64,000 nt of DNA. Origin: Alicyclobacillus sp. SO9 (GTDB lineage Bacteria; Bacillota; Bacilli; Alicyclobacillales; Alicyclobacillaceae). A program made the translations under genes and the position numbers. The stretch covers positions 434,001 through 498,000 of the forward strand of contig NZ_CP066339.1 of assembly GCF_016406125.1 (NCBI RefSeq). The letters are read 5' to 3'. The notes under the pieces are model-generated. The model had not been told where the DNA came from. It did no database searches and worked only from the letters and a program-made list of their open reading frames with translations. Positions within the stretch are counted from its first letter, which is position 1. The number at the start of each line of letters is the position of its first letter. This document shows, one piece after another, positions 26,374-63,683 of this stretch.

Positions 26374-26485
26374 AACAGCAGCCCACACGAGTCTATTGGA
26401 ACATCTATACGTTGTTCATCGGGAATAGACTCCTCAGGGATGCTTAAAATTGAAATTCTGGACAGATGGGAAGGCCAACTTGGGT

Positions 26486-39013: not shown

Positions 39014-39159
39014 TTGAATGAGTTGAGTTGTGAAGAACAAGTTACGAAGCAGACCAGATCTAAAATATGACATTAGCTACCCTCACATTTGCTCCACCTC
39101 TCTCTCCCGAGGAAGTCGTGCTCGGTCGGCATTTCAGTAAATGTCAAGAAAATACAGGT

Positions 39160-40500
39160 GGAGTTTCTAAATAGATTGGCATCCCGTTCAGATAGACCCA
39201 AAACTCAGTCTAAAAGTGTTGGCTTGGCCGGTTCAAGGTCAAGCCGGAGACGGTGGGGTACTGTGTCCCTCGGTTTAGTGCCTCCAAAGATCCTTATCGT
39301 CGGAGGGGGAGCACCATTGTGATCCCAAGGATCCTTAATGCCACCTAGCCCGCGGAATTAGTGTCATAAATGGACACTAATGTCGGGTGAGGCAGAAGGG
39401 AGCGTGGGTGTTAAGGAGCAAAGGGATCCCTATTTCGGAGGGCCTGCTGGCGATAGTGATCGAATCGATCACTATCCTGTGGCGGGTATGGAGATAAGGA
39501 TCAAAAGGATCACTAATCAACGGGCTGCCAGCGGCCCAGGGGCCTGCGCCGACTCTGCGCCCACGTGTCCGTCGCGGTGGCTACCAAATTCGTCCTATTA
39601 TTAGGGTGTAACTTCAATTTCTGCAGTTTACCACTTATTTTTTCGTACGATCCCGTTGATCTACCGGGCCTCGCTGGCTGTGGTGGCTGGCCCCGCTGCT
39701 GCTGTTCGGGCGGGGCTGGGCGATTAGTGCCTCCAAAGATCCTTATCGTCGGAGGGGCTACGCCATTGTGATCCCAACGATCCTTAATGCCACCTGGCCC
39801 GCGACATTAGTGTCATAAATGCACACTAATGCCGGGTGAGGCAGAGTGGCGGGTGGGTGTTAAGGCGCAAAGGGATCCCTATTTCGGAGGGCCTGCTGGT
39901 GATAGTGATCGAATCGATCACTATCCTGTGGCGGGTATGGAGATAAGGATCAACGGGATCACTAATCAACGGCGCAGCCAGCGGCACCGACTCTGCACCC
40001 CCCGTCTCTGTCGGAGCGCCTGTAAAATTCATCCTATTATGAGGGTGTAACTTCAATTTCTGCAGTTTACCACTCAGTTTTTCGTTCGATCCCGTTGATC
40101 ATCCGCGCTTTGCTGGCTGCTGTTCGGGCGGGGCTGGGCGATTAGTGCCTCCAAAGATCCTTATCGTCGGAGGGAGAGCGCCATTGTGATCCCAAGGATC
40201 CTTAATGCCACCTGGCCCGCGGCATTAGTGTCATAAATGGACACTAATGCCGGGTGAGGCAGAGTGGAGGGTGGGTGTTAAGGAGCAAAGGGATCACTAT
40301 TTCGGAGAGCCTGCTGGTGATAGTGATCGAATCGATCACTATCATGTGGCGGGTGGGTGTTAAGGAGCAACGGGATCACTAACCAGCGTAAGCGCCGACA
40401 AATGCGCGAAGGCTTGCGTCCGATCGCGTTGCCCTATTGCCCTCGCTGCGTCTCACGCGCAGCCGACTGCCGTTGAGGGGGGCGCGTCAAAAGCCCGTAT
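39160..40500. repeat. Mosaic of long palindromic repeats in two full and one partial ~420-450 bp unit
   Basis: Units start at GCCTCCAAAGATCC (39280, 39729, 40147). Each contains, in order: CCTCC...GGAGG around CTTATCGT; a CATTAGTGTC/GACACTAATG stem (the first unit has one mismatch); AAGGGATC(C/A)CTATTTCGGAG; a 12-bp-arm palindrome of GATAGTGATCGA and its complement; and GATAAGGATCAA or a variant. Between units lie GTGTAACTTCAATTTCTGCAG words. The same AGTGATC and GGGATCCCTAT words occur at 14818-15063. No transposase, terminal inverted repeats or convincing gene were seen. Confidence 0.85.
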
Positions 40501-41848: not shown

Positions 41849-43693
41849 CTAAACGACGATACGAGTCTCCATAAACGCTTGCAGGTCAGCAGGAGACAGG
41901 GACTGGCAGAAAAAGTGGCCTTGAATTTCATGGCAACCGAGTTCGCGCAGCAAATCGAGTTGCTGCTCAGTCTCTACACCTTCGGCTATCACAGCAAGTT
42001 GACGTGCTTCTGCAATGGCAATAATAGACTTGGCAACGGCCAAATCCTTATCGTTGTCAGTGATGTCATTGATAAATGTATTATCAATTTTTAAACAACT
42101 GACATCCAAGTCCTTGAGTAGTCCAAGGGAAGAGTATCCTGTTCCAAAGTCATCAATCGTGATGACAATTCCGAGGGACCGTAAGGCTGTAATGTTTTCT
42201 GCAACAATTTTGGAATTGTCTGCTAGTGCTGCTTCTGTAATCTCGATCTCAAGGTTAGCATTCATCTCCGGATATCGGTGCAGTATTGTTTGCACTTCTT
42301 GGACAAATTCAGGTTGCTGGAAGTCTGCCGCGGCCACGTTCATTGCGACGCGAAGAGTGTCAGAACCGTCGTGTTTCCACAACAGAATTTGTCTGCAAAT
42401 CTGGTCCAGCACCCATTCTCCGATGATTCTCGTGATTTTGTTCTCTTTTGCAACAGGAATAAAAGTATCTGGATAAAGTATGCCAAACTTGGGATGATTC
42501 CATCGTACTAGAGCCTCTACACTTGCGACATTCCCTGTGTAGGCGTCGATACGAGGATGGTATTCCAAGAAGAACTCGCCATTGGCGGGTGCCGCCCGTA
42601 AATCCGCGGCCAATTGCAGGTGATGATTGAAACTCGAATTCATGTCATTTGTGTATATACGGTAGCTTTGTCGTCCGTTTCGTTTAGCGGAGTACATGGC
42701 GGAATCGGCGTTTTTCATGAGTTCTTCTGCCGTCAAACCGTGGTGTGGTGCATAAGCGATACCAATACTCAGCGTAAGATAGAAAGTGTGTTCACCCACA
42801 CGCATGGGCTGTTCGACCGTTTTCATAACAGCCACGGCAGTATCGATAGCTTCATCAGAATGAGTCTGTTCTGGGATGAGCAACATAAATTCATCCCCTC
42901 CCATACGCGCCAGGATATGGGCCTCGCTTATACAGCTTTGAATGCGACCGGTTATTAGCTTCAAAACTTCATCGCCCACATGGTGACCAAGAGAGTCGTT
43001 AATGGATTTAAATTGGTCTAAATCGAGAAACAATACTGCTAAAGACTCTGATTCACGGTTTAGCCCAGCCAGGGCCAAAGATAATTTGTCGATAAACAGT
43101 GTTCTGTTTGCAACTCCGGTCAGTTCGTCATAAAACGCGAGTTGCTTCAGTTTAAGTTGCGCGTTTTCTGACCTTCGCAGCGACGATAGGCGCAGAGTTG
43201 AAGCAGCATACGAGACCAATGACATGGTTGTAAAAACGGTTCCCAGGAATAGAACATGTGTCAGGGAGACGCGTGTCGAAAGCGCCGCAACAAACCCAAG
43301 TAAGTACGTGATTGTAAAGACTCGCAGTGCGTTTGCATCATCAAATACGAGTATTGTAACGGCAAGACCCATGAGGCAGGAAAGAACCTGAATTGCAGTG
43401 AAATGATTAAGCCACGCTCCGTAGATTTCGCAGGAACTAAGCATCGATACCAGGACATAAAATGCCAGTCTATAGTGGCGCTGAACCGTCCGGACCATGA
43501 TGCGGGAAGCAAAGATGACTACCCCAAAAATCTCCGTGATGACTTCAATGTTCAGCGGCAATACAGCAGCGGGACTGTATATTTTGAGCATGACATTATA
43601 AATAGGAAGAAGTACGATAATAAGGAGTGTAAATAACGGATAGCCAAGCATTTCTATTTTGCTGGAATACTTCGGAAATAAAGATAGGTTCAT
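41849..43693 (-). CDS. Membrane GGDEF-EAL protein (c-di-GMP synthesis and/or hydrolysis)
   Basis: About 614 residues. Five to six N-terminal hydrophobic segments (to about residue 165) are followed by GGDEF and EAL domains. The cyclase signature is intact (ARMGGDEF); the inhibitory RxxD site in front of it is not evident. EAL elements are complete: VEALVRW, EIEITEAAL, DDFGTGYSSL, KIDNTFI, EGVET and QGHFFC. Both activities are therefore possible. ATG 43693 is preceded by AGGGGTG at proper spacing; GTG 43705 is an alternative. It lies beside the exosortase operon and upstream of c-di-GMP receptors (48508, 52600). Confidence 0.9.
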   Translation of the reverse strand: MNLSLFPKYSSKIEMLGYPLFTLLIIVLLPIYNVMLKIYSPAAVLPLNIEVITEIFGVVIFASRIMVRTVQRHYRLAFYVLVSMLSSCEIYGAWLNHFTAIQVLSCLMGLAVTILVFDDANALRVFTITYLLGFVAALSTRVSLTHVLFLGTVFTTMSLVSYAASTLRLSSLRRSENAQLKLKQLAFYDELTGVANRTLFIDKLSLALAGLNRESESLAVLFLDLDQFKSINDSLGHHVGDEVLKLITGRIQSCISEAHILARMGGDEFMLLIPEQTHSDEAIDTAVAVMKTVEQPMRVGEHTFYLTLSIGIAYAPHHGLTAEELMKNADSAMYSAKRNGRQSYRIYTNDMNSSFNHHLQLAADLRAAPANGEFFLEYHPRIDAYTGNVASVEALVRWNHPKFGILYPDTFIPVAKENKITRIIGEWVLDQICRQILLWKHDGSDTLRVAMNVAAADFQQPEFVQEVQTILHRYPEMNANLEIEITEAALADNSKIVAENITALRSLGIVITIDDFGTGYSSLGLLKDLDVSCLKIDNTFINDITDNDKDLAVAKSIIAIAEARQLAVIAEGVETEQQLDLLRELGCHEIQGHFFCQSLSPADLQAFMETRIVV

Positions 43694-43842
43694 CCTACCT
43701 ATCACCCCTGCACAGAACTATAACATGGAATATTTTCGCAGAACTCTATGTTATTCTACCATATATCCCTTGACACAACTATATAGGTATGCAGGGAAGT
43801 GTGTTCTCATGCAGATATGCAGGGGGAAGTGAGCTTTCATGA

Positions 43843-43877: not shown

Positions 43878-45542
43878 CTATGCTTTTTGTGGTGCCAAAG
43901 CTTTTTTCTTTAGCGTTATGTCCGAAAACGTTCGGACGAAGGAATGAAACTTGTCGAGTTGCGTAGCGTTGATATCGGAGTACTGTGCTGACAAACCCTT
44001 CGACTGAGCACTCCAAAGTGCGGGTAGAGACTGTCCGAGTTGCTTCACGGCACTATCTGTGGTGCTGATGCCGTATTTTACGGGTGTCGCGAATTCTGCG
44101 CGAATATAGGCTGTTTTTCCCTTATATTTGACAGCGTACATATAGGACACATCCTCAAACAGGTTTCGCTTCCCTTTGAGTTTTGAGGGTGCCAAAAGGA
44201 CAGCGTAGGTCGTGGCGCTAATTCCCGGGGTTAGAGTGAAAGTGTGTTTGCCGGCAATTTGATCGCCGTGGAACAACATACAGTTGTTGACCCCGTAGCT
44301 TTTCATTGCACTGGCATTGTAGGTCCACCACAACTCTGCCATTGCATATTGTCCGTTACTATTGGAGTAGGCAAATGCTGTGCCGTAAGATCCTGGTCCG
44401 AGAACGGATGCTTCGTTATACTTGCCCAGCAGTGTGCGGTGATAACCTGGCATGTTCGGCATCAGTTGACTTAAATTATTCGTTGAAACTGTCACGGGAG
44501 AGCGAAACGAACCTTCTCCCCAACTGTACAACGGCCATAAGAGAACGGTGAGTGCCAGGCCTGCCGTTATCGTTGTGCCCGCTCGTCCCCACCCAGGAAC
44601 TGAGAGGTGACCTGTGGCCGACGACGTACGTCCTTTCATGCCAATCGATTTACCAATGAGGGCCAACACGCCCATAATGCCCAGGAATAGAAGCACGCCG
44701 ATAATGGGGTGGAGAATGCCAAAGGTAAAATTCCCGCCCAGTGTATGAGCTGAGATGAGGAGTACAAACAGTCGCAGCAAATTCATGACAACGGTAAGTA
44801 CCGTGCCGATTGCAATTAACAGGATTTTTTTAATTGGACCGCCTTTAAAGGCTACAAGAATGACTGGCAGCAGAATCAGCATTGCCAGAAAACTGTCTCC
44901 TCCGCTGCATGCACTGGATACTGTGACCAACAGCGTCGATCGTTTGTAGTTAACAAGGTAGTTCCCGTAGGTTCCGGACATCTGTAACCAAGGGACCAAG
45001 TGGGCTGCCTTGACAACTGCTGCATTGGCAATTCCGTAGAGGAGCGGGTTTGTATGGTTGACAATGACTGTATAGAGCGGCGGCCAAGCCAAAAGGATAT
45101 AGGCTAACGGCTTGATCAGCCTGCGGGTTACGCCGATGCCGAACAGCAGCCAAGCGGCTCCCATGCTCCAGAACGGCCAAACCAAAAGGCCGGCATTGTT
45201 TGCAATAAAGATGTGCGACCACTCTGTCATGCCTGCAAAAAGCACTGTGCCGGCTAAACCTAGAAGCAGAAAGCCGAGGATAGCATTGAGTTCCGCATCG
45301 TCCTTGTAGCGCGCGATGCCCTTCAGTGAGATGGCACCCCAGATAAGTCCAAAGACCGGGATCCAAATCAGGTAGGCGTAAGGAGTGTCCGCCAGCGCAT
45401 GGTTCCACAGCGGGATTGCGTAGGGCGCAATCGGGACGACACTTACAATCATCCATACCGCAATATAAATGTTAATCCCTTGGCTTAGCTTTCCCTTGTG
45501 ACGTTGCCGGCCTGTTTCAATCCCGCTTGCTGTTGAACTCAT
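43878..45542 (-). CDS. Exosortase fused to a C-terminal EpsI-like domain (copy 1)
   Basis: About 554 residues with eight or more membrane segments. The exosortase triad is present: Cys212 in SSACSGGDSFLAML, Arg257 in MNLLRLFVLL and His278 in GILHPIIGV (numbered from ATG 45542, which follows AAGGAG). After the last helix, about 210 extracellular residues (VSTNNLSQLMPNMPGYHRTL...ELWWTYNASAMKSYGVNNCMLFHGDQ...) resemble the EpsI domain often fused to or encoded beside exosortases. It should cleave PEP-CTERM-like proteins after membrane insertion and transfer them, probably to a polysaccharide or glycolipid. It is 70 bases downstream of a paralogue with the same architecture. Confidence 0.85.
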   Translation of the reverse strand: MSSTASGIETGRQRHKGKLSQGINIYIAVWMIVSVVPIAPYAIPLWNHALADTPYAYLIWIPVFGLIWGAISLKGIARYKDDAELNAILGFLLLGLAGTVLFAGMTEWSHIFIANNAGLLVWPFWSMGAAWLLFGIGVTRRLIKPLAYILLAWPPLYTVIVNHTNPLLYGIANAAVVKAAHLVPWLQMSGTYGNYLVNYKRSTLLVTVSSACSGGDSFLAMLILLPVILVAFKGGPIKKILLIAIGTVLTVVMNLLRLFVLLISAHTLGGNFTFGILHPIIGVLLFLGIMGVLALIGKSIGMKGRTSSATGHLSVPGWGRAGTTITAGLALTVLLWPLYSWGEGSFRSPVTVSTNNLSQLMPNMPGYHRTLLGKYNEASVLGPGSYGTAFAYSNSNGQYAMAELWWTYNASAMKSYGVNNCMLFHGDQIAGKHTFTLTPGISATTYAVLLAPSKLKGKRNLFEDVSYMYAVKYKGKTAYIRAEFATPVKYGISTTDSAVKQLGQSLPALWSAQSKGLSAQYSDINATQLDKFHSFVRTFSDITLKKKALAPQKA

Positions 45543-45621
45543 GTCTATCACTCCTTTTTTCGGCGTAAAATACTCATTTGTTGTCTTATGTTTTACGGGC
45601 TGACCTGCTTATTGTCTGCAG

Positions 45622-47259
45622 CTAGAGACTTGATGAAGCATTGGAACTGGACAACAAGGTGGCTCCCATTTGTCGAATAAACCCAATGTAATTGTGCAGA
45701 TGGACTGTTTGGTTCACACTGACGGGATCAATATGCCGAACCTGGTTGTATTTTCGGTTTACCAGTTTGGCCGCTAGCTCCTTGACAGACTGCGTCGTTG
45801 CGGCACTTGGCTTAACGTGGAGCAGTACCGGCGCTGCAGTTTCCATTCGAATATATACTTTTTTTCCGCGGTATGTTGCGTTGTACTCATATACTGTGTC
45901 CAGAAAAATGTCTCGGTTTCCTCCTACGTGAAGAGGCGGCAGGTAGATGGCATAGACGTTGGCGGTAATGCCGTTGTCCAGTTTCATAGGTTCGGTCGCA
46001 ATGATTTTTGAACCGTGGAAGAGCAAACAGTTGTGTTCCGAGTAACCTTTGAGTGTTAGAGGCTGATAAGTCCACCACATCTCGGTTAACGCGTAATCAC
46101 CCTGAATGGTTGTGTAGGCAGCAGAACTGGTCTTGGCCCCAGGTCCAAGTGTGGACGCTTCATTAAAATTATGGACTTGCCCTCTGTGCCAGCCATTGAT
46201 TGGCGGCATCAACTTTTCCAATACGCTTGTCTGCAGAAGGACTGGATGTCGCACGGTCCCTGGGCTCTGTAAAAGTAAAGGCCACAATAGAAACGTGAGA
46301 ACAGCCACTGACAATACGGAACTGGAAAGGCGAAATACACCTGGTCTTTGCAATGGGGTACTTCTTTTAAAACTCACAGCTCGCAGCTGCAAAAGTTTTG
46401 CCGTCCATATCACCAGCCCCATCATGACCAAAAACAACAAAACGCCCAGAATGGGATGCAGCAGACCCAACGAAAATTTCACTCCAAACCAGTGAAGTGT
46501 GAAGAGGATGAGCCACAACCGAATGACGTTTCCGAGAATCGCTAAGACCGCGGCTAAGACGACGAGCAACAGTTTCTTCCACGGACCGCGGGAGTATGAG
46601 ACCATTATAATAGGTAGAAGGATTATCATTGCCAGAAAACTGTCTGCACCATTGCACACAGATGTCACGTGAACCAGGGTGCTTATGCCCTTGTGTAGTA
46701 CAGTATAGTTTCCAGATGATTGCGCTATGGAAATCCAGTCGAACCACCTGGTCAAAACCTGAACACCTGCATTGGCGATTGCGTCAAGAATTGGATTAGT
46801 CCAGTGAACAATTTGGCTGTACAGTACGGGCCAACACAATAGCAGATAGACAAGGGGCCTCCAAACAACGCGGGAAATCTTGATGCCGAAGATCCACCAT
46901 GCCATTGCCAGCGACCACACAGGCCAGAACAGGAGGCCGACACTGTGGCCTACGAAAACGAGATCCCAATGCAATCGTCCAACCACAAGCAGGATACCGA
47001 CGAACACTGCCAGTACGAGCCCCAACATATAGCTCAGTTCGGAGTCATCATTTGCCGTGTGGTGCCGCCAAATTGACCAGCCCGCCCAAACAAAGGCGAA
47101 AGCCGGAACCCAGACGAGATATGAGTACGGTGTATCAGATAGGGTCGCAATCCACAGCGGCTGCGAATATGGAATAAACGGAATAACAGAGGCCATGCCC
47201 CAAATGAGAACCCAGACATAAGTATGAAATCCAGTTTGCGTCTTCTGCCGTGTACCCAA
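45622..47259 (-). CDS. Exosortase fused to a C-terminal EpsI-like domain (copy 2)
   Basis: 545 residues, a paralogue of the next gene with the same order of domains. The triad is Cys202 (TSVCNGADSFLAM), Arg247 (LGNVIRLWLIL) and His268 (GLLHPILGV). The C-terminal domain starts near SVLEKLMPPINGWHRGQVHNFNEASTLGPG and contains MWWTYQPLTLKGYSEHNCLLFHG, parallel to copy 1. The Cys motif is CNGADS here and CSGGDS in copy 1, and overall similarity looks moderate, so the duplication is not recent. TTG 47259 is 27 bases after the putative substrate gene, with AGAGGG somewhat far upstream. The two copies may serve different substrates. Confidence 0.85.
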   Translation of the reverse strand: MGTRQKTQTGFHTYVWVLIWGMASVIPFIPYSQPLWIATLSDTPYSYLVWVPAFAFVWAGWSIWRHHTANDDSELSYMLGLVLAVFVGILLVVGRLHWDLVFVGHSVGLLFWPVWSLAMAWWIFGIKISRVVWRPLVYLLLCWPVLYSQIVHWTNPILDAIANAGVQVLTRWFDWISIAQSSGNYTVLHKGISTLVHVTSVCNGADSFLAMIILLPIIMVSYSRGPWKKLLLVVLAAVLAILGNVIRLWLILFTLHWFGVKFSLGLLHPILGVLLFLVMMGLVIWTAKLLQLRAVSFKRSTPLQRPGVFRLSSSVLSVAVLTFLLWPLLLQSPGTVRHPVLLQTSVLEKLMPPINGWHRGQVHNFNEASTLGPGAKTSSAAYTTIQGDYALTEMWWTYQPLTLKGYSEHNCLLFHGSKIIATEPMKLDNGITANVYAIYLPPLHVGGNRDIFLDTVYEYNATYRGKKVYIRMETAAPVLLHVKPSAATTQSVKELAAKLVNRKYNQVRHIDPVSVNQTVHLHNYIGFIRQMGATLLSSSNASSSL

Positions 47260-47286
47260 AATAGAACTTGACCCTCTCTTCAGTTT

Positions 47287-47796
47287 CTAAGATAGTTCCA
47301 CGTTATCTAGTTTGGCTTTTGCTTTCCGCTTTCGGTTCGCATACCACAAGCCAACCATACCCAGTGGAATGAGCGCAGCGAGCGGAGCTTCCGGCAGGGT
47401 GTCCACAAGGGGTCCAGCCGTAGACGTGTATTGATACCCGTTACTTTTATAGGACGTGGAAACCCAAACTGTCTCCTTCTGTCCATAGTTCGGCAGCGGA
47501 ATGGTATACGTGAATGGATGGCCTGGTGAAGGCGTCAAGTTTCCCGTTTCCGATTTTGGATTCGAAGCGCTTGAACTGCCCTGAGGCCCGCCGAGTGTAA
47601 ACACGAAGGTAAGTGTCTGTGCAGGCTGTAGTTTGTTGTTTAAATTCGGAATTGAAAGTGTAATACTTGTCTGTTTTGAAGATGTGACCACTTTGCTGCT
47701 GTAACTATTGTTTGTGGCGGCGAATGCAACGGAAGTCATAAACAAAGAGGAAGCGCCCACAAAGCCAGCCGAAAGCATCAGCAACCGACTTTTCAT
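47287..47796 (-). CDS. Secreted protein with PEP-CTERM-like (LPEAP) sorting tail, predicted exosortase substrate
   Basis: 169 residues. A Sec signal peptide ends near AFAA (residue 28). The mature part is a beta-rich, Ser/Thr-rich domain (SKQTSITLSIPNLNNKLQPAQ). The tail is tripartite: DTLPEAP, a hydrophobic run LAALIPLGMVGLWYA, then NRKRKAKAK. That is the layout of exosortase sorting signals, with PExP in place of PEP. It is the first gene in front of two exosortases, 27 bases upstream. ATG 47796 follows AAGGAG. It could instead be a simple membrane-anchored protein. Confidence 0.75.
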   Translation of the reverse strand: MKSRLLMLSAGFVGASSLFMTSVAFAATNNSYSSKVVTSSKQTSITLSIPNLNNKLQPAQTLTFVFTLGGPQGSSSASNPKSETGNLTPSPGHPFTYTIPLPNYGQKETVWVSTSYKSNGYQYTSTAGPLVDTLPEAPLAALIPLGMVGLWYANRKRKAKAKLDNVELS

Positions 47797-48019
47797 TGGT
47801 TTTTCTCCTTCCGTAATGCTTGCATACTGTATGTAACTCTACTATAGCATTTTGCATGCCAGCGCTTTCTAAAGAAAACTTTAAAGCTCTGTAATGCCTT
47901 TGTTTGCGCGGTTCTGAGCGAAGTGTCATGAGGGTGACTTCGGCCCTGAAAGCTGATAAACTTGTGCTAGAATCGTCAGAATTCTTGTTTGAACACAACA
48001 ATGCAAAGGAATGGGAAGT

Positions 48020-48508
48020 ATGGCCAACGGATTAGGGCTGCAACTGTTCGGGTATCGTCGTACGAAGGTGGATCGGCGACTTAAGAGTCTGAAAAAGACC
48101 CTTGACGATGCGCAGAAAAACCAGGAAGAACTACAAAAGGCTCTGCAGGATTTGTCTCTACAAGTGAAGACACTGCGAGCTGAGAAGGAAGAGTACGCGG
48201 CCGCATTGGCGACGGTGAAGCGTCAACAGCTTGACACGTTTGCAGAAACCCCAACTTCCTTTCCCATGACTGTTATGGTTGGACCCACTGATACAATTGC
48301 ACCCATTACGGGGCTGATGGACGCCCTTGATGACTGTCCGTATTTAAATGTTCGTTTTCGATTATTTCGAGACGGTGTGTATCGCGTGGACGGTATTGCA
48401 ACCGACCCAGTGTCGCTGCTGTCTTGGTTGAGAAAGCGGCCGGACGTGCAATTTCTGGACAATGATAAAGGAACGATTCATGTGATGCCGAAGGAAGTTT
48501 CTGCGTGA
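48020..48508 (+). CDS. Coiled-coil protein of unknown function, first gene of the glycosyltransferase operon
   Basis: About 162 residues. VDRRLKSLKKTLDDAQKNQEELQKALQDLSLQVKTLRAEKEEY (about 16-60) gives a clear coiled coil. The C-terminal 80 residues (TVMVGPTDTIAPITGLMDALDD...YRVDGIATDPVSLLSWLRKRPDVQFLDNDKGTIHV) form a small alpha/beta domain I do not recognise. No signal or membrane segment. ATG 48020 is better spaced from AAAGGA than ATG 48011. The stop overlaps the glycosyltransferase start (TGATG), so the two are translationally coupled and probably act together. Confidence 0.7.
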   Translation: MANGLGLQLFGYRRTKVDRRLKSLKKTLDDAQKNQEELQKALQDLSLQVKTLRAEKEEYAAALATVKRQQLDTFAETPTSFPMTVMVGPTDTIAPITGLMDALDDCPYLNVRFRLFRDGVYRVDGIATDPVSLLSWLRKRPDVQFLDNDKGTIHVMPKEVSA

Positions 48509-50772
48509 TGACTGAGACAGATTTTCAGTCGGAGTATAGCCACAGTTGGAGATGGGATTCAGTTCGGGTCGCGAAACTGTTCGTCTCTTTGCGCCCCTAT
48601 CGATTGTCTGATGCAACCGGATGGGTCGATCCCGTCAGCAAATCGGCAGCTGCCCTCCTTTCCCTAAATGCATGCCGAACACTTTCCATTCTGCCTTTCG
48701 CGAAGCATAATCAGCGTGTTTTCGTAGCCTGTTCCAATCCTGAAAAGGTACAGGACGAACCGACGCTGCGGGAATTAGCAATGGAAACGCATTGTTCCAT
48801 CGTACTTTGCGGGACTGATTTGGATGACTTGGTGTTCGCTTGGCGGCGACTTGAGGAGCAGCCCGGCACAAATGCAGAGAACCGGCTTGGTGAGATTCTG
48901 CTGCAAGAAGGGAAGCTTTCCGGGCAGGAATTGATTGACGCACTGGAGGCTCAGAAGGAAACGGGCAGCCGTGTTGGTGCGATTCTCACGAGCGGAAATT
49001 CCTTGACATCATGGGATGTCGCTTTGGCCATTGCGCAACAGCGTAAGATTCCGGTGGTGGATTTGCTGCACCAACCACAGCTTAAGACGATGCTCAACGC
49101 CGCGAGTCTCGCACAAGTGTGGGAAAGTGTTTCAGATGAATTCTGGCACAGGCACCTGGTCGTTCCACTGGGCCGAGACGCGACTACTTTAACCGTCGCT
49201 ATGGTGGATCCGGACGATTCCGAGGCACTCACAGCGCTCACTCAACAGTTTCAGTGCAAGGTTCGTATTTGTGCAGCTGGTTACCGCGATGTCATGTCAG
49301 CCCTTGCTGTTAAATACAGTAAAGAACATGAGGAAAGCAGCCGCCTTGCACTGGTTGCCAGACGTCCCGATGAAAGTGCCAGTGTTCGGTTTTCACGAGG
49401 GCAAATCGTGACGGCTACTGTGCTCCTGGTTCTGTTTGCCGGAGGCGTTGCCATCCGACCGCTTTGGACAATAGCCTTCGTCGTCATCGTTTTACAACTG
49501 ATATATGCGGCAAACAACGTCTTTCGACTGTGGCTCATGCAGCGCTCTGCTAAGCAAACGACAGAGTACACGGTGACAAAAGTAGATTTGGCCAAGATTC
49601 CGCCGGTTTCGCTTCCGGCTTATACCGTTTTAGTGCCGGTGTACAAGGAAGCTGAAGTACTTCCTGACTTGGTGGAGGCAATTAAGAACTTGCAATATCC
49701 AAAAGACCGTCTGGATGTAAAGCTGCTGCTGGAGGAAGACGACGAAGAGACCATCCAAATTGCGAAGGCTTCCAAACTTCCTAATTTCATTGAGATGGTC
49801 ATTGTGCCGTCTTCCGAACCCAAAACCAAACCCAAGGCATGCAATTACGGGCTTATGAGGGCGCGCGGGGAGTACGTGGTTATCTTTGACGCTGAGGATA
49901 TTCCTGAGCCGGACCAACTCTTGAAGGCAATCTCTGTCTTCCGACAGAACAAAGACCAGACCCTTGCCTGTGTTCAGGCAAAATTAAGCTACTATAACGC
50001 GGAACAGAACATCCTGACCCGCTGGTTCACTGCCGAATACGCCAACTGGTTTGAACTGTCACTGCCAGCACTGTTTTCCCACGACCTGCCAATCCCGTTG
50101 GGGGGAACATCCAACCATTTCCGTGCCGATGTGCTCAAGGAGATGGGCGCCTGGGACCCATACAATGTGGCAGAAGACGCCGATTTAGGTATTCGAATGC
50201 ACAAGCACGGTTACCGCACAGCCATTGTCAACTCAACGACATTTGAAGAAGCTAACGCTGATTTTCTCAACTGGATTCGCCAACGATCGCGGTGGGTCAA
50301 AGGATACATGCAAACCTGGTTGGTTCACATGCGTCGTCCAGTGGAACTGCACCGCGCGCTCGGTGTTAAGGGCACAGCCGCTTTTCATATGATTGTGGGC
50401 GGCACACCATTTACGTTTTTGCTCAACCCGCTGATGTGGTTTATGACCGTGCTGTGGTTTATTTTTAAGCCTCACTTTATGCATCAGTTGTATGACAACC
50501 CAATTTACTATCTGTCTGTTATAAACTTCATGTTCGGGAATTTCGCATTTACCTATGTCAACGTGGTTGGAACCATGCAACGCCAATCCTGGCCCTTGGC
50601 GAAATATGCGTTGCTATCGCCGATTTACTGGATTTTCATGTCCATTGCGTCATGGAAAGCTCTTTATCAATTGTTTGTTAAGCCGTCTTACTGGGAAAAG
50701 ACGATTCATGGGCTGGCGAAGAAAGATGACAAATCTATCACTCAAATACTAACTGTCGGAAGTAATTCCTAA
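48508..50772 (+). CDS. Family 2 membrane glycosyltransferase with N-terminal MshEN (c-di-GMP-binding-type) domain
   Basis: 754 residues. Residues about 125-270 match MshEN: the first motif NRLGEILLQEGKLSGQELIDAL fits RLGxxLxxxGxLxxxxLxxALxxQ almost perfectly, and the second (SRVGAILTSGNSLTSWDVAL) is looser. PLGRDATTLTVAMVDPDDSEAL closes the fold. Residues 1-115 look like another half of this fold. Two membrane helices (300-340) lead to a GT2 domain with FDAEDIPEPD (DxD), the AEDADLG motif and QRSRW, as in processive synthases. Four more membrane segments follow. E. coli NfrB has the same two parts in the opposite order and is c-di-GMP-activated. Confidence 0.85.
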   Translation: MTETDFQSEYSHSWRWDSVRVAKLFVSLRPYRLSDATGWVDPVSKSAAALLSLNACRTLSILPFAKHNQRVFVACSNPEKVQDEPTLRELAMETHCSIVLCGTDLDDLVFAWRRLEEQPGTNAENRLGEILLQEGKLSGQELIDALEAQKETGSRVGAILTSGNSLTSWDVALAIAQQRKIPVVDLLHQPQLKTMLNAASLAQVWESVSDEFWHRHLVVPLGRDATTLTVAMVDPDDSEALTALTQQFQCKVRICAAGYRDVMSALAVKYSKEHEESSRLALVARRPDESASVRFSRGQIVTATVLLVLFAGGVAIRPLWTIAFVVIVLQLIYAANNVFRLWLMQRSAKQTTEYTVTKVDLAKIPPVSLPAYTVLVPVYKEAEVLPDLVEAIKNLQYPKDRLDVKLLLEEDDEETIQIAKASKLPNFIEMVIVPSSEPKTKPKACNYGLMRARGEYVVIFDAEDIPEPDQLLKAISVFRQNKDQTLACVQAKLSYYNAEQNILTRWFTAEYANWFELSLPALFSHDLPIPLGGTSNHFRADVLKEMGAWDPYNVAEDADLGIRMHKHGYRTAIVNSTTFEEANADFLNWIRQRSRWVKGYMQTWLVHMRRPVELHRALGVKGTAAFHMIVGGTPFTFLLNPLMWFMTVLWFIFKPHFMHQLYDNPIYYLSVINFMFGNFAFTYVNVVGTMQRQSWPLAKYALLSPIYWIFMSIASWKALYQLFVKPSYWEKTIHGLAKKDDKSITQILTVGSNS

Positions 50773-50824
50773 CAATGTATACCAGTTGCAGGATGTATAC
50801 AGGTTGCAGATGGAGCGAATATAC

Positions 50825-52492
50825 ATGACGAGTTTATCTCAAACAACTTCATTAGGACCGAATCATGAAAGACACTCGATGCCTTTAATGCAGGAGAGGC
50901 AAACCAGAAGTTTGGAAATGCTTGAGCCCTTCATTTTGTCTTTCCTGGCGTTCTTGATGGCTTTGTCTGGTGGCGTTTATCTAGCTTTTGTGCTTCATGT
51001 TATCAACTCAGATGCCCTGACTAGAGTACTCAATGCGTATTACACAATTTTTTCACCTAAGTTTCATCTCGCGGCCATGGGATTTGTGTGGAATCCTCTT
51101 CCGAGCATCGTGGAATTACCGATAGTTCTGTTTCATCACTGGTTCCCTGCACTGATTACTGATGGTTTTGCTGCGAATCTGATGAGTTCGGTGTCGAGTG
51201 CGTTTGGCATGTACTTTTTGAATCGCATTTTGTTTTATGTGGGGATTCCACGGTTCTGGAGGATTGTCTATTCGCTGATTTACGCTCTCAATCCTTTAAT
51301 ATGGTTGTACTCCTCCAACGGCATGTCGGAAGCCATGATGATAGCTACAATGCTGGGCGCACTCCACGGTGCGGTGCGCTACTTGGATGATGGGCGTCAC
51401 AGCCATCTGATTTCGGCCGGGCTGTGGTTGGCAGCGTGTTTTGGTGCGAGATATGAGGCCGTTCCCTTTGGCGCCCTGGTCGGCCTCGCTCTTTTGCTGG
51501 CTTTGTATTTAAAAGGGTATTCCGCATCGCGCATCCAGGCGGATTTGATTGTTGCGGGATTGCCCTTGATTTTCGCTGGATTGGTCTGGGTGTTTTTAAA
51601 CTGGACGATTATGGGGAATCCACTGTATTTCATGAACTCTGCATATTCTAATGCTTCCCAAATAGGTACGGGAAGCTACAATGATAAACTCATTTTGAGG
51701 GACGCCCACCACTTGTTCTACTCGCTGCAGACCGTAGCTCACTTCTCCTTTTTGTTTCCGCCTGCTATTGTTGGACTCGCGGGTGCTTTACTGGTTTTTG
51801 CTTTCAGCAAGAAACGTCGCGGTCAAGCACTCTTGTTTGTGGCAGCACTTCTGACCATTCCACTCTTTCAGGTTGTGATGATTTATAAGCATGCGTCCGC
51901 AATTTGGTCTCGCTTTTTTATCACGTATATTCCTTTTGGCATCCTTCTCGTGGCATTGCTCATGGTTGTGATTGCAAAGGGACCTTGGCTGGTGCGACAT
52001 TTTTTGCTGCTCGTTTCAGCAGCCGTACTGCTAGGCGGCAACTACGTTACGTTTCACGAGATACAAACTCCCATCATGGGGAAAGGTGTCACAAAGAATT
52101 TTGCTCATGTCGTGGAAGGACTTCCGGCATCCCAGGCGGCTCAGAATAATGGGATGACGCAAGGGAAGATCGTAGCGAACTACATTAATGAACACCCGCA
52201 TCTAGTCGTGTTGCTGGATACTTTTGACTCCTTTAGCGTCGTACCATTCATCAAGGACCCCAAACAGGTAGTAATTACAAGTGATTTGAATTTTCAAAGT
52301 CTTCTCCTGAATCCAAGGGGACGCGTTAGTGATTTTCTAGTTCCAAACCCGGGTGGCGTGGGGGCATTGGATGCCATCAATAGAACGTATCCAGGACTGT
52401 GGCAGGGTAAAGTTGCTTGGGCCAAAGAGACGAAACAGTTCTCTGGAAACCTTGGCTACAAACTTTTTTCAATCGGGTCTTCTGCTCCTTAA
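50825..52492 (+). CDS. Polytopic membrane protein, GT-C-like glycosyltransferase candidate
   Basis: About 555 residues and ten to eleven hydrophobic segments. A C-terminal soluble domain of about 120 residues (EIQTPIMGKGVTKNF...HPHLVVLLDTFDSFSVVPFIKDPKQVVITSD) follows the last helix. The first outside loop region (NAYYTIFSPKFHLAAMGFVWNPLPS) and the overall layout resemble PMT/ArnT GT-C enzymes, though the canonical Asp-Glu/Asp-Asp pair is not obvious. ATG 50825 follows TGGAGCG. It lies 50 bases after the GT2 gene and probably belongs to the same operon. Assignment to GT-C is inferred. Confidence 0.55.
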   Translation: MTSLSQTTSLGPNHERHSMPLMQERQTRSLEMLEPFILSFLAFLMALSGGVYLAFVLHVINSDALTRVLNAYYTIFSPKFHLAAMGFVWNPLPSIVELPIVLFHHWFPALITDGFAANLMSSVSSAFGMYFLNRILFYVGIPRFWRIVYSLIYALNPLIWLYSSNGMSEAMMIATMLGALHGAVRYLDDGRHSHLISAGLWLAACFGARYEAVPFGALVGLALLLALYLKGYSASRIQADLIVAGLPLIFAGLVWVFLNWTIMGNPLYFMNSAYSNASQIGTGSYNDKLILRDAHHLFYSLQTVAHFSFLFPPAIVGLAGALLVFAFSKKRRGQALLFVAALLTIPLFQVVMIYKHASAIWSRFFITYIPFGILLVALLMVVIAKGPWLVRHFLLLVSAAVLLGGNYVTFHEIQTPIMGKGVTKNFAHVVEGLPASQAAQNNGMTQGKIVANYINEHPHLVVLLDTFDSFSVVPFIKDPKQVVITSDLNFQSLLLNPRGRVSDFLVPNPGGVGALDAINRTYPGLWQGKVAWAKETKQFSGNLGYKLFSIGSSAP

Positions 52493-52537: not shown

Positions 52538-52599
52538 AGACCATAGCTAGAAAAATATTTTTGAAGCTTGTGTGACCAAAATCATAACGATGTTTGGAA

Positions 52600-52678
52600 A
52601 AAGGCAAACCCGGTGAAAGCTGGGGACGCAAAACTACAGGGGCTACGCATCGAGAGATGTATGCCAGCCAGTTGCCCA
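52600..52678 (+). ncRNA. c-di-GMP-I (GEMM-I) riboswitch aptamer
   Basis: The conserved parts are in order: GGCAAACC (52603-52610), a short stem capped by GAAA, GGGACGCAAA (52622-52631), the P3 stem with GGGGCTAC and GCCAGCC, and the closing TTGCC (52672-52676) that pairs with GGCAA in P1. A terminator and then a ribosome site follow immediately. TTGCC can alternatively pair with GGCAA at 52685-52689, which would disrupt both P1 and the terminator foot. That predicts c-di-GMP turns the gene off. The off direction is inference. Confidence 0.88.
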
Positions 52679-52687
52679 TGCGGAGGC

Positions 52688-52737
52688 AAGCAAGTGCAGT
52701 GTTCCTCACGCGGGGGATATCGCACTTGCTTTTTTTT
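52688..52737 (+). terminator. Expression-platform terminator of the c-di-GMP riboswitch
   Basis: AAGCAAGTGC (52688-52697) pairs with GCACTTGCTT (52722-52731) and is followed by a T8 tract. The ribosome site GGGGGAGG starts directly after it. It stands 11 bases after the aptamer. Confidence 0.88.
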
Positions 52738-52753
52738 GGGGGAGGTCTTCGCA

Positions 52754-55186
52754 TTGCGTTATGGCTCGCTTCTGGCGGTAGTGCTTCCTATCGCAATCAT
52801 TTCAGTAGGCGTTGCGGAAAATGCTACGATCAAAGGGTTGGTTTTTCAGTCTTCATCGTACAGCGGTCACAGAATACTCAAACAAAGAGGCCCGGACAAT
52901 AGCAACCACATTGACAATGTGCAGACGGGATTTCAGTCGAAGGCACATGGAACGACTAAGGGCCAGTCATCTGCTTTGGTATCCGATTTGAACCTCGAAG
53001 GCACATCACAAACGATTTCACTCACATCCTTGACGAAGACAGATATGGCAAATACACAATCGCAGAGTTCTAACGGAGTGCAAGGCGGTCATTCGACGCA
53101 AAGTCAACTTCAACAATCCCAACAGCAAGGTTCGACATCCAATTCGACGACTTCAAGCTCATCGGCTTCCGGTCAGTCAACTTCCGGTCAAGCGTCAAGT
53201 TCCAATCCTTCCACACCGCTGCCTTACACGGCAAGGCTATCATCAGGAGTGCAGGTTTCTCCTGATAATTTTGGCTTGAATGTGGCTGAGTGGGACAACG
53301 GAATGAATGCATCGTCAACCATTCCAGCAATTAGAAAGCTCGGTACAGGGTTGCAGAGATATCCTAATAACGATGCTTGGTCATGGAAACTCAATCGTTC
53401 ACGAAACGGATCGGACAATTATCGAACATGGAACAGTTTCACGAGTCCATTTTCGATGTTGCGCTGGTCATCAGAGCTGAAGGCGACGGGGAACCAAGGG
53501 ATCTTCAACATTAACTACGGAATGAACTCCCAGTGGAACGGAGGCCAATCGGTCTCTGACGTTAGGGAATTGACACAGTATATTGTGTCTCACCACATTC
53601 CGGTCAGGGCGATGGTAGTTGGAAGTGAAAATTACGCTGGCGGAACAATTAACCTGCGTGCTAACAAGTCTCCTGCTGAATACGCCGATGTTGCAAAGCA
53701 AATGGCGATTGCTATTCATCAGATAGACCCAAGCATGAAGGTGGGTGTGAATCTAACTCCAGGCTTGAACGGAAGGATGTCCAGTACAGACTTAAAGTGG
53801 AATGAGACAGTTTTAAGAACAGACGCTCCGTATATTCAGTTTGTTACGTTTCACGTATACCCGGTTGATAACGCAGTCAGTCAATCCGGTTTGTTACAAA
53901 CACTCATGAAAGATGTTCCGGACATCACCTCAGAGGTTCGCAGATTGCTCATTGGAAACACGGGCAAATATGCATCTCACATTCAGGTGTGGTTTACGGA
54001 ATTTAATTTGTTTTCTCAGCCCCGGCCCAAAACGGTTCAAAATATCGGTGGAACGGCAATGATGGAAAGCATGCTGCTGGCACGAAGCCTTGGTGTTAAC
54101 GAGGTGGATTGGTGGAGCTTGCACGGTGGAGCTCACGCACTTATGTCAAATGGACAAGTTGCCTCACCTGAAGTTCACCATGCCGTGAGTCAATACGGTA
54201 CGTTCGCGTTGACTGGCGACGGGCAAGCACCTGAAAAGTCAATGAACTCTTTGTATCCGACTGGACAAGCTTTGTCCGAGTTAACCTCACTGGTGCGAGG
54301 CGGAGCACAGCTTGACGCTAAAACCGCAGGCAATCTGCTGGTCGCGAAGATCACACGGGGAAGCAGTGCACACTGGGTTGTTGTGAACACAGGCAATACC
54401 AATGAAACCGTGCAAGTGAACGGGGTCGGACATACAGTTGCGGCGCATACTTATACGGTGCTGAGTTCATCTGCAAGCAGCACGTTGCACACGCCGGATA
54501 AGGCTGTCGACTTACCCGCTTCGGCCTTGGTGACTTCATCTTCTTTGGCCGTGCAAGCTTCTCATCAGGCACCGCCGGCAACACCCCACATCTCAAGCGT
54601 ATCTGCCAGCGACATTCACAGCAACGAGGTCTTAACATTGCATGGCAGCGGGTTTGGCAGTTCCAGGGGTTCCGGCTACGTGAGCTTTTCAAACAATAAT
54701 GTTCACTGGGGGTCTCCACAGAACTTTTACAAACTCAACATCCTAAAGTGGACCAACTCTGAGATTCAGTTCGTGACACCGTCACAGAGCGTACCCCATG
54801 GTTCTGTCAATCTGAAACCTGGCAGCTCGGCTTCGGCCACGGTGTTCACCGGAAATCAGGCTTCTTCAAATACTGTGCAGATGCACGTGCAAACTGCACT
54901 GCCCGCTCAGCTTTCGACGGCACAGCTCACCCCCGGGAAAACCGTGACGGTAACCGGTAACGGGTTTGGCAGTTCTCAGGGAAATGGTTACGTTCAGGTG
55001 TCAGATCAGGGCGTCAACATAGGGTCGCCTTCCAACTTCTATAAGCTGCGGATTGTGAGTTGGACGAACGGTTCTATTACGTTTGTAGTGCCGACACAGC
55101 ACTTGACGCCTGGTACAGCAGCATCTGTACGTGTCATGGCTGCAAGCGGAATAGAGACAGTCACAATGAACGGTTCAGTGCACTAA
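52754..55186 (+). CDS. Secreted glycoside-hydrolase-like protein with two C-terminal TIG/IPT domains
   Basis: TTG 52754 follows GGGGGAGG, which itself follows the riboswitch terminator; in-frame codons back to 52568 lie inside the aptamer and are not translated. 810 residues: signal or anchor helix (5-25), a Ser/Gln/Asn linker, a TIM-barrel-type domain (about 160-560) and two TIG domains (about 615-710 and 715-808), which both carry GxGFGSSxGxGYV. Candidate catalytic Glu residues are E292 (VVGSENYAGG) and E416 (VWFTEFNLF), spaced as in clan GH-A enzymes (GH39/51/79-like). It likely acts on an extracellular polysaccharide, perhaps the one made by this locus. Confidence 0.72.
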   Translation: MRYGSLLAVVLPIAIISVGVAENATIKGLVFQSSSYSGHRILKQRGPDNSNHIDNVQTGFQSKAHGTTKGQSSALVSDLNLEGTSQTISLTSLTKTDMANTQSQSSNGVQGGHSTQSQLQQSQQQGSTSNSTTSSSSASGQSTSGQASSSNPSTPLPYTARLSSGVQVSPDNFGLNVAEWDNGMNASSTIPAIRKLGTGLQRYPNNDAWSWKLNRSRNGSDNYRTWNSFTSPFSMLRWSSELKATGNQGIFNINYGMNSQWNGGQSVSDVRELTQYIVSHHIPVRAMVVGSENYAGGTINLRANKSPAEYADVAKQMAIAIHQIDPSMKVGVNLTPGLNGRMSSTDLKWNETVLRTDAPYIQFVTFHVYPVDNAVSQSGLLQTLMKDVPDITSEVRRLLIGNTGKYASHIQVWFTEFNLFSQPRPKTVQNIGGTAMMESMLLARSLGVNEVDWWSLHGGAHALMSNGQVASPEVHHAVSQYGTFALTGDGQAPEKSMNSLYPTGQALSELTSLVRGGAQLDAKTAGNLLVAKITRGSSAHWVVVNTGNTNETVQVNGVGHTVAAHTYTVLSSSASSTLHTPDKAVDLPASALVTSSSLAVQASHQAPPATPHISSVSASDIHSNEVLTLHGSGFGSSRGSGYVSFSNNNVHWGSPQNFYKLNILKWTNSEIQFVTPSQSVPHGSVNLKPGSSASATVFTGNQASSNTVQMHVQTALPAQLSTAQLTPGKTVTVTGNGFGSSQGNGYVQVSDQGVNIGSPSNFYKLRIVSWTNGSITFVVPTQHLTPGTAASVRVMAASGIETVTMNGSVH

Positions 55187-55284: not shown

Positions 55285-55422
55285 CTTAAGGCGATTCTGA
55301 TATACTGTTGCTAGCATGTCATACCCTTCACACACTACTGCAGTCTTTTAATAGAATTTCCAACTCTGCTATTTGCACCGACCTGCGAATTCTACAGACA
55401 CCTAGAAAGTGAGTTGTTTTTG

Positions 55423-56790
55423 ATGAAGATTGTTCTTCTCTCCGGCGGCTCGGGTAAGCGCTTATGGCCGATGTCGAACGATGTCCGTTCAAAGCAGTTT
55501 TTGAAGGTACTACAGGGGCCGGATGGTTCACAAATTTCCATGCTGCAGAGAGTATGGAACCAACTGACAACAGTCAACTTGTTGGAGGATGCGTACGTGT
55601 GCGCTTCCAAGGCGCAAGCGGATTCCATTCACGCTCAGGTTGGATTTGTACCCGTTATAGAAGAACCGGAGCGTCGAGATACATTTGCAGCTATTGCGTT
55701 ATCCTGCACATACCTCGCTGACGTAGTTGGTTGTTCTGACGACGAAGTCATGGTCGTTGCTCCGGTCGATCACTATGTCGACAACGAGTATTTCGAAAGA
55801 GTGTCAGGCCTTGAGGAACAACTCAATGCGTCACATGCTGACTTGGCATTACTCGGTGTAGAGCCGACAGAACCATCCAGCAAGTTTGGTTACATCTCGG
55901 TTGAAGGGGAGACGACGTCCCAGCCTTACCGACAGGTGCAGTCATTTGTAGAGAAGCCCGACGAAGACCAAGCGAAAAAACTGATTGCTTCCGGTGCACT
56001 GTGGAACTGTGGTGTGTTTTGTTTCAGAATTGGATGGTTAAAGAATATTCTCTTATCTAAGGGGATTTCTCCTAGTTATACAGATATCCGCGAAAACTTC
56101 AAGGACCTCCCAAAAAACAGTTTTGACTACGAGGTTGTAGAGCACGCTTCTTCCGTTGTAGCAAGCCCCTACAACGGAAAATGGAAAGACTTGGGTACTT
56201 GGTCGTCGTTAACAGAAGAAATGGGAGACGGTTTTGTCGGCCTCGGAGAAACTGTCAACTGTGAAGGCACCCATGTCATTAACGAATTGGGGATTCCTTT
56301 GATTGGTATGGGGTTGAAGGACACCGTTGTTGTCAGTTCGCCTGACGGAATACTGGTTGCCGATAAACAACAGAGTTCACAACTTAAAGCGGTTTTAAAG
56401 AAGTACCATGGACGGCCGATGTTTGACGAACGCATGTGGGGTTCGTACCGAGTCTTGGACTATCAAGAACTGGAGGACGGCACAGAGGTTCTGACAAAGT
56501 CGATTGAGTTAAAACAAGGGCACAACCTCAGTTACCAGAAACATCGCTGGCGGAGTGAAGTGTGGACATTTGTTGAAGGTGAGGGCGAATTGGCCGTTGA
56601 TGACCGGATTATACCTATCACTCCTGGGGATGTGGTCAGGGTCTATGCAGAACAGTGGCATGCGATTCGTGCACTGACGCCACTAAAGTTCATTGAAGTC
56701 CAAAGAGGAGCAGAACTGGTCGAAGAAGATATTGTGCGAAAGTACGTATCTTGGGAAGATGTGCAAAGGCATTGCGGGGTTACAATTTAG
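55423..56790 (+). CDS. manC: Mannose-1-phosphate guanylyltransferase with cupin (mannose-6-phosphate isomerase) domain
   Basis: About 455 residues. The nucleotidyltransferase signature LSGGSGKRLWPMS, VAPVDHYV, FVEKPDEDQA and NCGVFCFRIGW mark the N-terminal pyrophosphorylase. The C-terminal cupin (SIELKQGHNLSYQKHRWRSEVWTFVEGEGEL) corresponds to the isomerase part of bifunctional ManC/AlgA. It makes GDP-mannose, a donor for exopolysaccharide or glycoprotein synthesis, and fits the upstream glycosyltransferases. ATG 55423 has only a weak AAAGTGAG site. It is separated from the preceding gene by a terminator, so it is its own unit. Confidence 0.87.
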   Translation: MKIVLLSGGSGKRLWPMSNDVRSKQFLKVLQGPDGSQISMLQRVWNQLTTVNLLEDAYVCASKAQADSIHAQVGFVPVIEEPERRDTFAAIALSCTYLADVVGCSDDEVMVVAPVDHYVDNEYFERVSGLEEQLNASHADLALLGVEPTEPSSKFGYISVEGETTSQPYRQVQSFVEKPDEDQAKKLIASGALWNCGVFCFRIGWLKNILLSKGISPSYTDIRENFKDLPKNSFDYEVVEHASSVVASPYNGKWKDLGTWSSLTEEMGDGFVGLGETVNCEGTHVINELGIPLIGMGLKDTVVVSSPDGILVADKQQSSQLKAVLKKYHGRPMFDERMWGSYRVLDYQELEDGTEVLTKSIELKQGHNLSYQKHRWRSEVWTFVEGEGELAVDDRIIPITPGDVVRVYAEQWHAIRALTPLKFIEVQRGAELVEEDIVRKYVSWEDVQRHCGVTI

Positions 56791-57790: not shown

Positions 57791-57833
57791 TTCTCATTTT
57801 CACTTATCTCAGACATGGCTCGGAGGTGTCCAG

Positions 57834-63029: not shown

Positions 63030-63683
63030 TCAGGTCGTTTGCTTCTTCTTGGAGAAACGATATAACAGGTAGCCGCCGGCAAGGACTACAGGAATGATGC
63101 CTGCGTAGGGGACTTCAGGCATGTTGCCGCCGGTGGATGGAGAGATGGGCTCTGTCAGCGTAAAGTTGCCGCCAACGGGATCGTCCGAATCAGAACCATA
63201 GTGTGTGCCGAACGGTTGCCACATGGTAAATGCTGTGGTGATTTTTGCGTTACCGGTCATCTTGGCTGGCACAGGTACTGCATAGGTTGCCTGGAACTTC
63301 TGGCCCAACTTGTTTGCTTCCATTACTTTGGATGCATCCGCATAATGGCCGCCCGTACCGGTGGTGGGCTTAATCATTGTTCCGGTTTCGGAGACTGTCT
63401 GGCCGTGGCTGTCCACAAAAGTAAACTTGGCTGTGGGAGGCAATCCGTGAACGTGGTTTTCTCCGCCCTGCGTATCCTGGTTTGACTCAATTACATTCAA
63501 TGTAATGTCCAGTGTTCCGCCCTGGGTTACACTCTTTTGAGTCGTAGTCATTCCGTTTGAATGGTCAAACATGAAGTGATAGGTAGTTTGCGCCATTGCG
63601 ACACTGGGTCCCATTGCCACCGCGGCAACGGCCAATCCTGCTCCAATTCCCACAATAGATGATTTCTTCAAGTTAAGGGTCAA
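63030..63683 (-). CDS. Secreted protein with PExP (MPEVP) C-terminal sorting tail, second predicted exosortase substrate
   Basis: 217 residues. TTG 63683 follows AAGGAGG. A Sec signal ends near AMAQ (residue 32). The mature domain is beta-rich with a GGENHVHGLPPTAKFTF segment and no family I can name. The tail reads GGNMPEVPYAGIIPVVLAGGYLLYRFSKKK: PExP, hydrophobic helix, basic end, parallel to the tail of the gene at 47287-47796 (LPEAPLAALIP). It lies about 16 kb from the exosortases. A plain tail anchor is the alternative. Confidence 0.72.
   Translation of the reverse strand: MTLNLKKSSIVGIGAGLAVAAVAMGPSVAMAQTTYHFMFDHSNGMTTTQKSVTQGGTLDITLNVIESNQDTQGGENHVHGLPPTAKFTFVDSHGQTVSETGTMIKPTTGTGGHYADASKVMEANKLGQKFQATYAVPVPAKMTGNAKITTAFTMWQPFGTHYGSDSDDPVGGNFTLTEPISPSTGGNMPEVPYAGIIPVVLAGGYLLYRFSKKKQTT

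Follow-up and report, generated by a model that had tools for sequence, protein, structure and literature searches.

Exosortase-family enzymes and PE-x-P-tailed candidate substrates at a polysaccharide locus of a Gram-positive Alicyclobacillus

Exosortases were originally found through comparative genomics in Gram-negative bacteria, and the final location of their substrates is, to our knowledge, poorly known. Here, we describe two adjacent exosortase-family genes, designated A and B, and a set of secreted proteins with C-terminal PE-x-P tails, which are very probably their substrates, in Alicyclobacillus sp. SO9. Both genes lie in a stretch of 64,000 nucleotides of contig NZ_CP066339.1 (positions 434,001 to 498,000), referred to below as the window.

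The locus resembles the XrtA/EpsH system with its PEP-CTERM substrates in superfamily, in the Cys-x-G, N-x-x-R and His motifs, in the tripartite tail and in linkage to polysaccharide genes (PMC1569441). It differs from that system in its PE-x-P motif, its Gram-positive host, the long C-terminal domain of its enzymes and the presence of two paralogues; A and B score 40-63 with the XrtA model, whose cut-off is 208, and no curated PEP-CTERM model matched among the substrates scanned. XrtG of Firmicutes is likewise a Gram-positive exosortase-family protein adjoining a family 2 glycosyltransferase, but A reaches only 24.3 against a cut-off of 102.75, B has no match, and the XrtG model, at 187 positions, is without the C-terminal domain. 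The long exosortases XrtD, XrtW and XrtT are similar in length and carry a C-terminal extension; however, the scores of A and B are far below the cut-offs, and the matches end at residues 291-368, short of most of the extension. Archaeosortase A, with its PGF-CTERM substrates, is also a membrane Cys enzyme paired with a C-terminal tripartite tail in cells without an outer membrane, but that system is archaeal and uses a different motif, and A and B fall far below the cut-offs of the archaeosortase models that they match (C and D). Sortases and their LPXTG substrates follow an analogous logic, also with a tripartite tail, but are non-homologous.

A 2006 survey did not find PEP-CTERM in Firmicutes (PMC1569441), a 2025 paper still describes the exosortase family as Gram-negative (PMC12188702), and a bioleaching comparison reported an exosortase system solely in Leptospirillum among the organisms compared (PMC5418355). 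A literature search for exosortases with Alicyclobacillus, or with Firmicutes and XrtG, returned nothing, subscription literature being outside the search.

The enzymes and their family membership

A secreted candidate substrate, B and A are encoded, in this order of transcription, on the minus strand, with 27 bases between the substrate gene and B (47260-47286) and 70 bases between B and A. Each enzyme motif listed below was read in the sequence and in relatives.

43878..45551, minus strand: exosortase-family enzyme A, 8-9 transmembrane helices followed by a beta-rich C-terminal domain
44892..44909, minus strand: CSGGDS of A, residue 215, proposed nucleophile Cys215
44772..44783, minus strand: NLLR of A, residue 257, proposed Arg260
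44706..44714, minus strand: LHP of A, residue 280, proposed His281
45622..47259, minus strand: exosortase-family enzyme B, 545 amino acids, paralogue of A with the same architecture
46639..46656, minus strand: CNGADS of B, residue 202, proposed nucleophile Cys202
46519..46530, minus strand: NVIR of B, residue 244, proposed Arg247
46453..46461, minus strand: LHP of B, residue 267, proposed His268
47287..47796, minus strand: candidate class I substrate, secreted beta-rich protein of 169 amino acids, first gene of the run
47383..47397, minus strand: LPEAP, putative recognition motif, followed by a hydrophobic helix and a basic end (motif reading and tail profile)

Both A and B carry the complete Cys/Arg/His set of exosortase-family proteins. 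A matched PF09721 with an E-value of 1.6e-19 (70.7 bits; cut-off 25.7) and TIGR04178 with 44.2 bits (cut-off 23), while B matched the same models with an E-value of 8.1e-23 (81.5 bits) and with 43.9 bits, respectively. With both cut-offs passed and the three residues present in a multi-helix membrane core, the proteins belong by sequence to the exosortase/archaeosortase superfamily. The triad, which a preliminary description made from the sequence alone had read in two adjacent genes, is indeed present in both, and Cys, Arg and His are unvarying in an alignment of 18 relatives. The two proteins are 41% identical; an AlphaFold model of A (mean predicted local distance difference test score, pLDDT, 82.5) has a helical core. 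The true start of A is probably the ATG at 45542, which is preceded by an AGGAG ribosome site, rather than the GTG at 45551.

Neither protein reached the cut-off of any of the NCBIfam Xrt subfamilies A, B, C, D, F, G, H, K, M, P, R, S, T, V, W, X and Y. The top score with a named subfamily was 62.6 bits (XrtA); other matching subfamilies stayed below their cut-offs, and the rest gave no match. The EpsH subfamily model TIGR02602 was not reached either (39.1 and 52.1 bits against 105.55). A and B lie outside every named Xrt subfamily tested.

The complete 5.29-Mb genome that holds the window contains no exosortases other than A and B, and a plasmid search found no relatives. Promoter and terminator scans at the locus gave scores not clearly above those of shuffled sequences. 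In the PDB, Foldseek found no structure matching at E<=0.001, and the sole match in a profile search of PDB sequences was a chance hit to a pilin. Separately, one related genome, G052, has fragments of a third copy of the exosortase gene, spread over two reading frames (L034:14483-15042), which is probably decaying.

In the AlphaFold model the C-terminal domain of the enzymes is beta-rich; it carries a conserved NC[LM]LFHG and shows weak likeness to the LpqN/MTC28 and START folds in the PDB. The domain is degenerate or missing in the enzymes of G018, G020, G031 and G046, and is therefore dispensable for the enzyme type. The preliminary description had taken both proteins for EpsI fusions. The sequences do not support this identification: no DUF3485/EpsI Pfam match was found in any of the 18 relatives (E<=10), and the NCBIfam EpsI model TIGR02914 matched neither A nor B.

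PE-x-P tails and their occurrence with the enzymes

The gene 27 bases upstream of B encodes, as the preliminary description had noted, a protein with a signal-peptide-like N-terminus and a C-terminal end LPEAPLAALIPLGMVGLWYANRKRKAKAKLDNVELS, in which LPEAP is followed by a hydrophobic run and basic residues. The tail profile matched this end with an E-value of 1.7e-15 in its own genome, the tail itself being part of the profile alignment. A structural model of the protein (pLDDT 57) was too poor to be read. The window encodes one more tailed protein:

63030..63683, minus strand: candidate class II substrate, secreted protein of 217 amino acids with end MPEVPYAGIIPVVLAGGYLLYRFSKKKQTT (MPEVPYAG tail); relatives in G043, G048 and G050

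Since the curated LPXTG model just exceeds its cut-off on this tail (16.3 against 15.9 bits, a marginal match, seen for this substrate only), automatic annotation may label the product of 63030-63683 a sortase substrate.

To enumerate tails genome-wide, we scanned the DNA with a degenerate pattern encoding P-E-[VTAI]-P-[YFLI]-[AT], a scan exhaustive for that motif alone. It produced 25 matches, four of which, after translation, were tails of secreted proteins: two within the window, at 47287 (LPEAPLAA) and 63030 (MPEVPYAG), and two elsewhere in the genome, close to C1:500772 and C1:5092765. The tail profile, whose alignment contained three of the four own tails (the 5092765 tail was left out), recovered the same four. 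The further PE-x-P-tailed proteins envisaged in the preliminary description thus exist, four in this genome and more in relatives.

The co-occurrence of tail and enzyme was followed in 59 genomes of the order, 399 of the class and 398 of the phylum. At the level of the order, an enzyme was found in 16 genomes (in G037 as a contig-edge fragment only). Tails (profile, E < 1e-8) were present in all 16 and, in addition, in G043 and G054, while 41 of the 43 enzyme-less genomes had none. Fisher's test gives p = 1.4e-12 for this pairing, a value uncorrected for relatedness and overstated because the genomes are related and the profile was built from tails beside enzymes. Within genera g2, g7, g10 and g19, the tail occurs solely in the species that has the enzyme. 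Class-wide, tails were found in nine genomes, all of this order, and seven of these nine, the only ones in the class, had exosortases over the cut-off; the remaining two were G037 and G043. In the phylum, nine genomes were over the cut-off, and the long enzyme type occurred, beyond the own genome, in G774, G734 and G572, with PEVPYAA tails beside it in the first two. A tail gene lies no more than about 200 bases from nearly every enzyme, including those of the phylum-level relatives L215 and L217. Relatives bearing names are metagenome-assembled Bacillota genomes and Alicyclobacillus sp. SP_1.

The small number of secreted tails among the 25 pattern matches, together with the co-occurrence of tail and enzyme, places the tail beyond chance. 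We consider it very probable, from gene content and position, that the PE-x-P tails mark substrates of the exosortases. Two points weigh against this. G043 and G054 each have ca. 10 tail matches (loci L134-L144) and no exosortase detectable by BLAST, PF09721, profile or TIGR04178, and there was no solved exosortase to serve as a comparison. Both genomes are incomplete drafts (91% and 88%), and draft gaps explain their enzyme-less tails best; that both genomes should have such a gap is somewhat unlikely, however, and another enzyme may handle the tails there. The distinct Gram-positive exosortase system with a PE-x-P tail that the preliminary description had proposed is thus borne out by tail-enzyme co-occurrence and by the position of A and B outside the named subfamilies tested.

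Polysaccharide and c-di-GMP genes at the locus

The cluster around the enzymes parallels the link between exosortases and exopolysaccharide genes in Gram-negatives (PMC1569441). The genes of this kind at the locus are:

41849..43705, minus strand: membrane GGDEF-EAL protein (cyclic di-GMP, c-di-GMP, turnover; family matches), directly downstream of A
48011..48508, plus strand: coiled-coil protein, part of the conserved polysaccharide cluster and neighbour of an exosortase in most of the loci fetched (L031-L035, L037-L040, L215 and L217 among them)
48505..50772, plus strand: family 2 glycosyltransferase with an MshEN-type (c-di-GMP-binding) domain (PF13641, PF05157)
50786..52492, plus strand: multi-pass membrane protein conserved beside exosortases, probable glycosyltransferase by inferred role (no family match)
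52568..55186, plus strand: secreted glycosidase-like protein with TIG domains (weak NCBIfam ArfA match, E 3.1e-5; TIG; relatives in L033, L034, L217)
55414..56790, plus strand: mannose-1-phosphate guanylyltransferase-like gene (family matches; relatives in L033, L147)

Counterparts of the glycosyltransferase at 48505-50772, 45-61% identical to it, adjoin exosortases in many loci. The coiled-coil protein, the MshEN-domain glycosyltransferase and the membrane protein form a trio that goes with most of the enzymes: it was found next to them throughout the order and, outside the class, in L215 and L217, and also in L222, with the coiled-coil gene undetected. The TIG-domain glycosidase-like protein, the mannose-1-phosphate guanylyltransferase and a regulator are found in some loci only, and the cluster is absent within the fetched flanks of the G018, G020, G031 and G046 loci.

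Other features of the window were observed in passing. A protein of 1715 amino acids (57768-62915) reads as a kinase-like domain, an ATPase and a GAF domain fused to a histidine kinase, with a response regulator adjacent; a relative of it adjoins enzyme A in G038 (L036). A 112-base tandem repeat of ca. 7.7 copies (93% matching) occupies 26478-27345, a stretch that otherwise looks non-coding. Repeated short open reading frames at 39089-40056 share the text EAE..VGVK.QRDPYFGGPAGDSDRIDHYPVAGMEIRI and PPKILIVGG and belong to a dispersed repeat, with a related stretch at L046:3742.

Proposed processing and division of labour

The enzymes, their motifs, the tail-enzyme association, the gene linkage and the exclusion from the named subfamilies tested were computed here, and the likely overall explanation, in our judgement, is an exosortase system that works in a Gram-positive host in connection with a polysaccharide locus. 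For catalysis, cut site, acceptor and division of labour we infer the following course. Secreted proteins would reach the membrane through the N-terminal signal peptide and be retained there by the C-terminal PE-x-P motif, helix and basic tail. The eight-helix membrane enzyme, with its Cys/Arg/His set, would use Cys to cut at or near PE-x-P on the outer face, after which the protein would be either released or transferred onto an acceptor, most likely either a lipid of the membrane or the polysaccharide that the neighbouring c-di-GMP-type synthase would produce.

That the protein is transferred to lipid or polysaccharide, and not simply released, has in our view an even chance. It is somewhat less probable that the enzymes are release proteases, which cut the tail and free the protein to the medium or the polysaccharide without covalent transfer: the sequence demonstrates no acceptor, and a monoderm cell has no outer membrane as an attachment site, but the tight linkage to polysaccharide genes and the lipid anchoring of archaeosortase substrates reported in PMC7157517 argue, both indirectly, against release alone.

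The tails themselves fall into two classes. Class I tails read LPE[AV]PLAA or near variants (one is LPFAPLAA); in each of the seven loci with B, the gene immediately before it encodes such a tail. The class I proteins form one orthologous family, with body likeness detected in six of the seven and none for the G038 protein. In class II the motif is mostly PE[VIT]P[YF]A, and the tails occur on many unrelated protein bodies, some with carbohydrate-binding or glycosidase domains. A class II gene of the PEVPYAG type adjoins A in the pair loci of G048, G050, G052 and G053, and a class II tail also adjoins the A-like enzyme of G027. The single-enzyme loci of G008 and G019 have the motif LPE[VT]RYA. 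B forms a clade with support of 96/99; outgroup branches were very long, and the family was left unrooted. In G049 (73% complete; locus L037) only A was seen, and the class I protein stops right before the tail, possibly through joint loss of B and the class I tail or through an assembly error.

These arrangements slightly favour a split of A and B by tail class. A would be the older of the two, with a general role on the PEVPYA(G/A) tails of many proteins, and B would have arisen by duplication and serve only the LPEAPLAA protein of the preceding gene; the enzymes may have specialised some time after they were duplicated. Four points count against such a split. In G774 only one enzyme was detected, and it has an LPEAPLAA tail encoded just before it and a PEVPYAA tail close by; the likeness among class I tails may just mirror one orthologous protein; the own genome has no class II gene next to A; and the tree does not resolve group A as a clade. 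We therefore regard one enzyme per tail class as plausible and, because of G774, unproven; the preliminary description's suggestion of one enzyme per substrate holds only in this modified form, with the constant pairing of B and class I, the PEVPYAG genes beside A in four pair loci and G049 on its side.

A less favoured account, with perhaps one chance in a few, is that A and B are redundant, or form one heteromeric enzyme, without preference for a tail class. This would fit the single gene run of A and B here, in G048 and in G050, as well as G774, but not the class I gene that is invariably 5' of B only, the separate clade of B, or G049, where neither B nor the class I tail is present.

Finally, it is very improbable that the tails are variant sortase signals served by the genome's two sortases, with the exosortases doing something else: besides those two sortases, only the marginal LPXTG match of the 63030 tail speaks for an LPXTG identity, which we rejected. 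Of the seven genomes with A and B, six (G038, G048, G050-G053, all with many tails) yielded no detectable sortase, so that sortase cannot explain the tails; none was detected in G046 or in tail-rich G043 either, many genomes with a sortase have no tails, and one of the two own copies adjoins a protein with a different tail, PVTGLP. That copy and its adjacent substrate, ending in PVTGLP, a helix and RKK (L132:4354-5653), form a separate dedicated sorting pair.

The exosortase system of A, B and their tailed proteins is well supported as a system; its kind is already known, and the variant is new. Since such enzymes are usually described from Gram-negatives, the pair is probably a conserved, little-noticed version of a known protein-sorting system in acidophilic Gram-positive bacteria. 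More tentatively, duplication in a monoderm may have given one enzyme with a general and one with a dedicated role, the two reading different kinds of PE-x-P tail and joining surface proteins to a c-di-GMP-controlled polysaccharide in a cell with no outer membrane. Because the Gram-positive host has just two enzymes and four tailed proteins and lacks an outer membrane, experiments could address cut site, acceptor and specificity directly, and the tails suggest identities for surface proteins of Alicyclobacillus-like bacteria that are unassigned or misannotated as LPXTG proteins.

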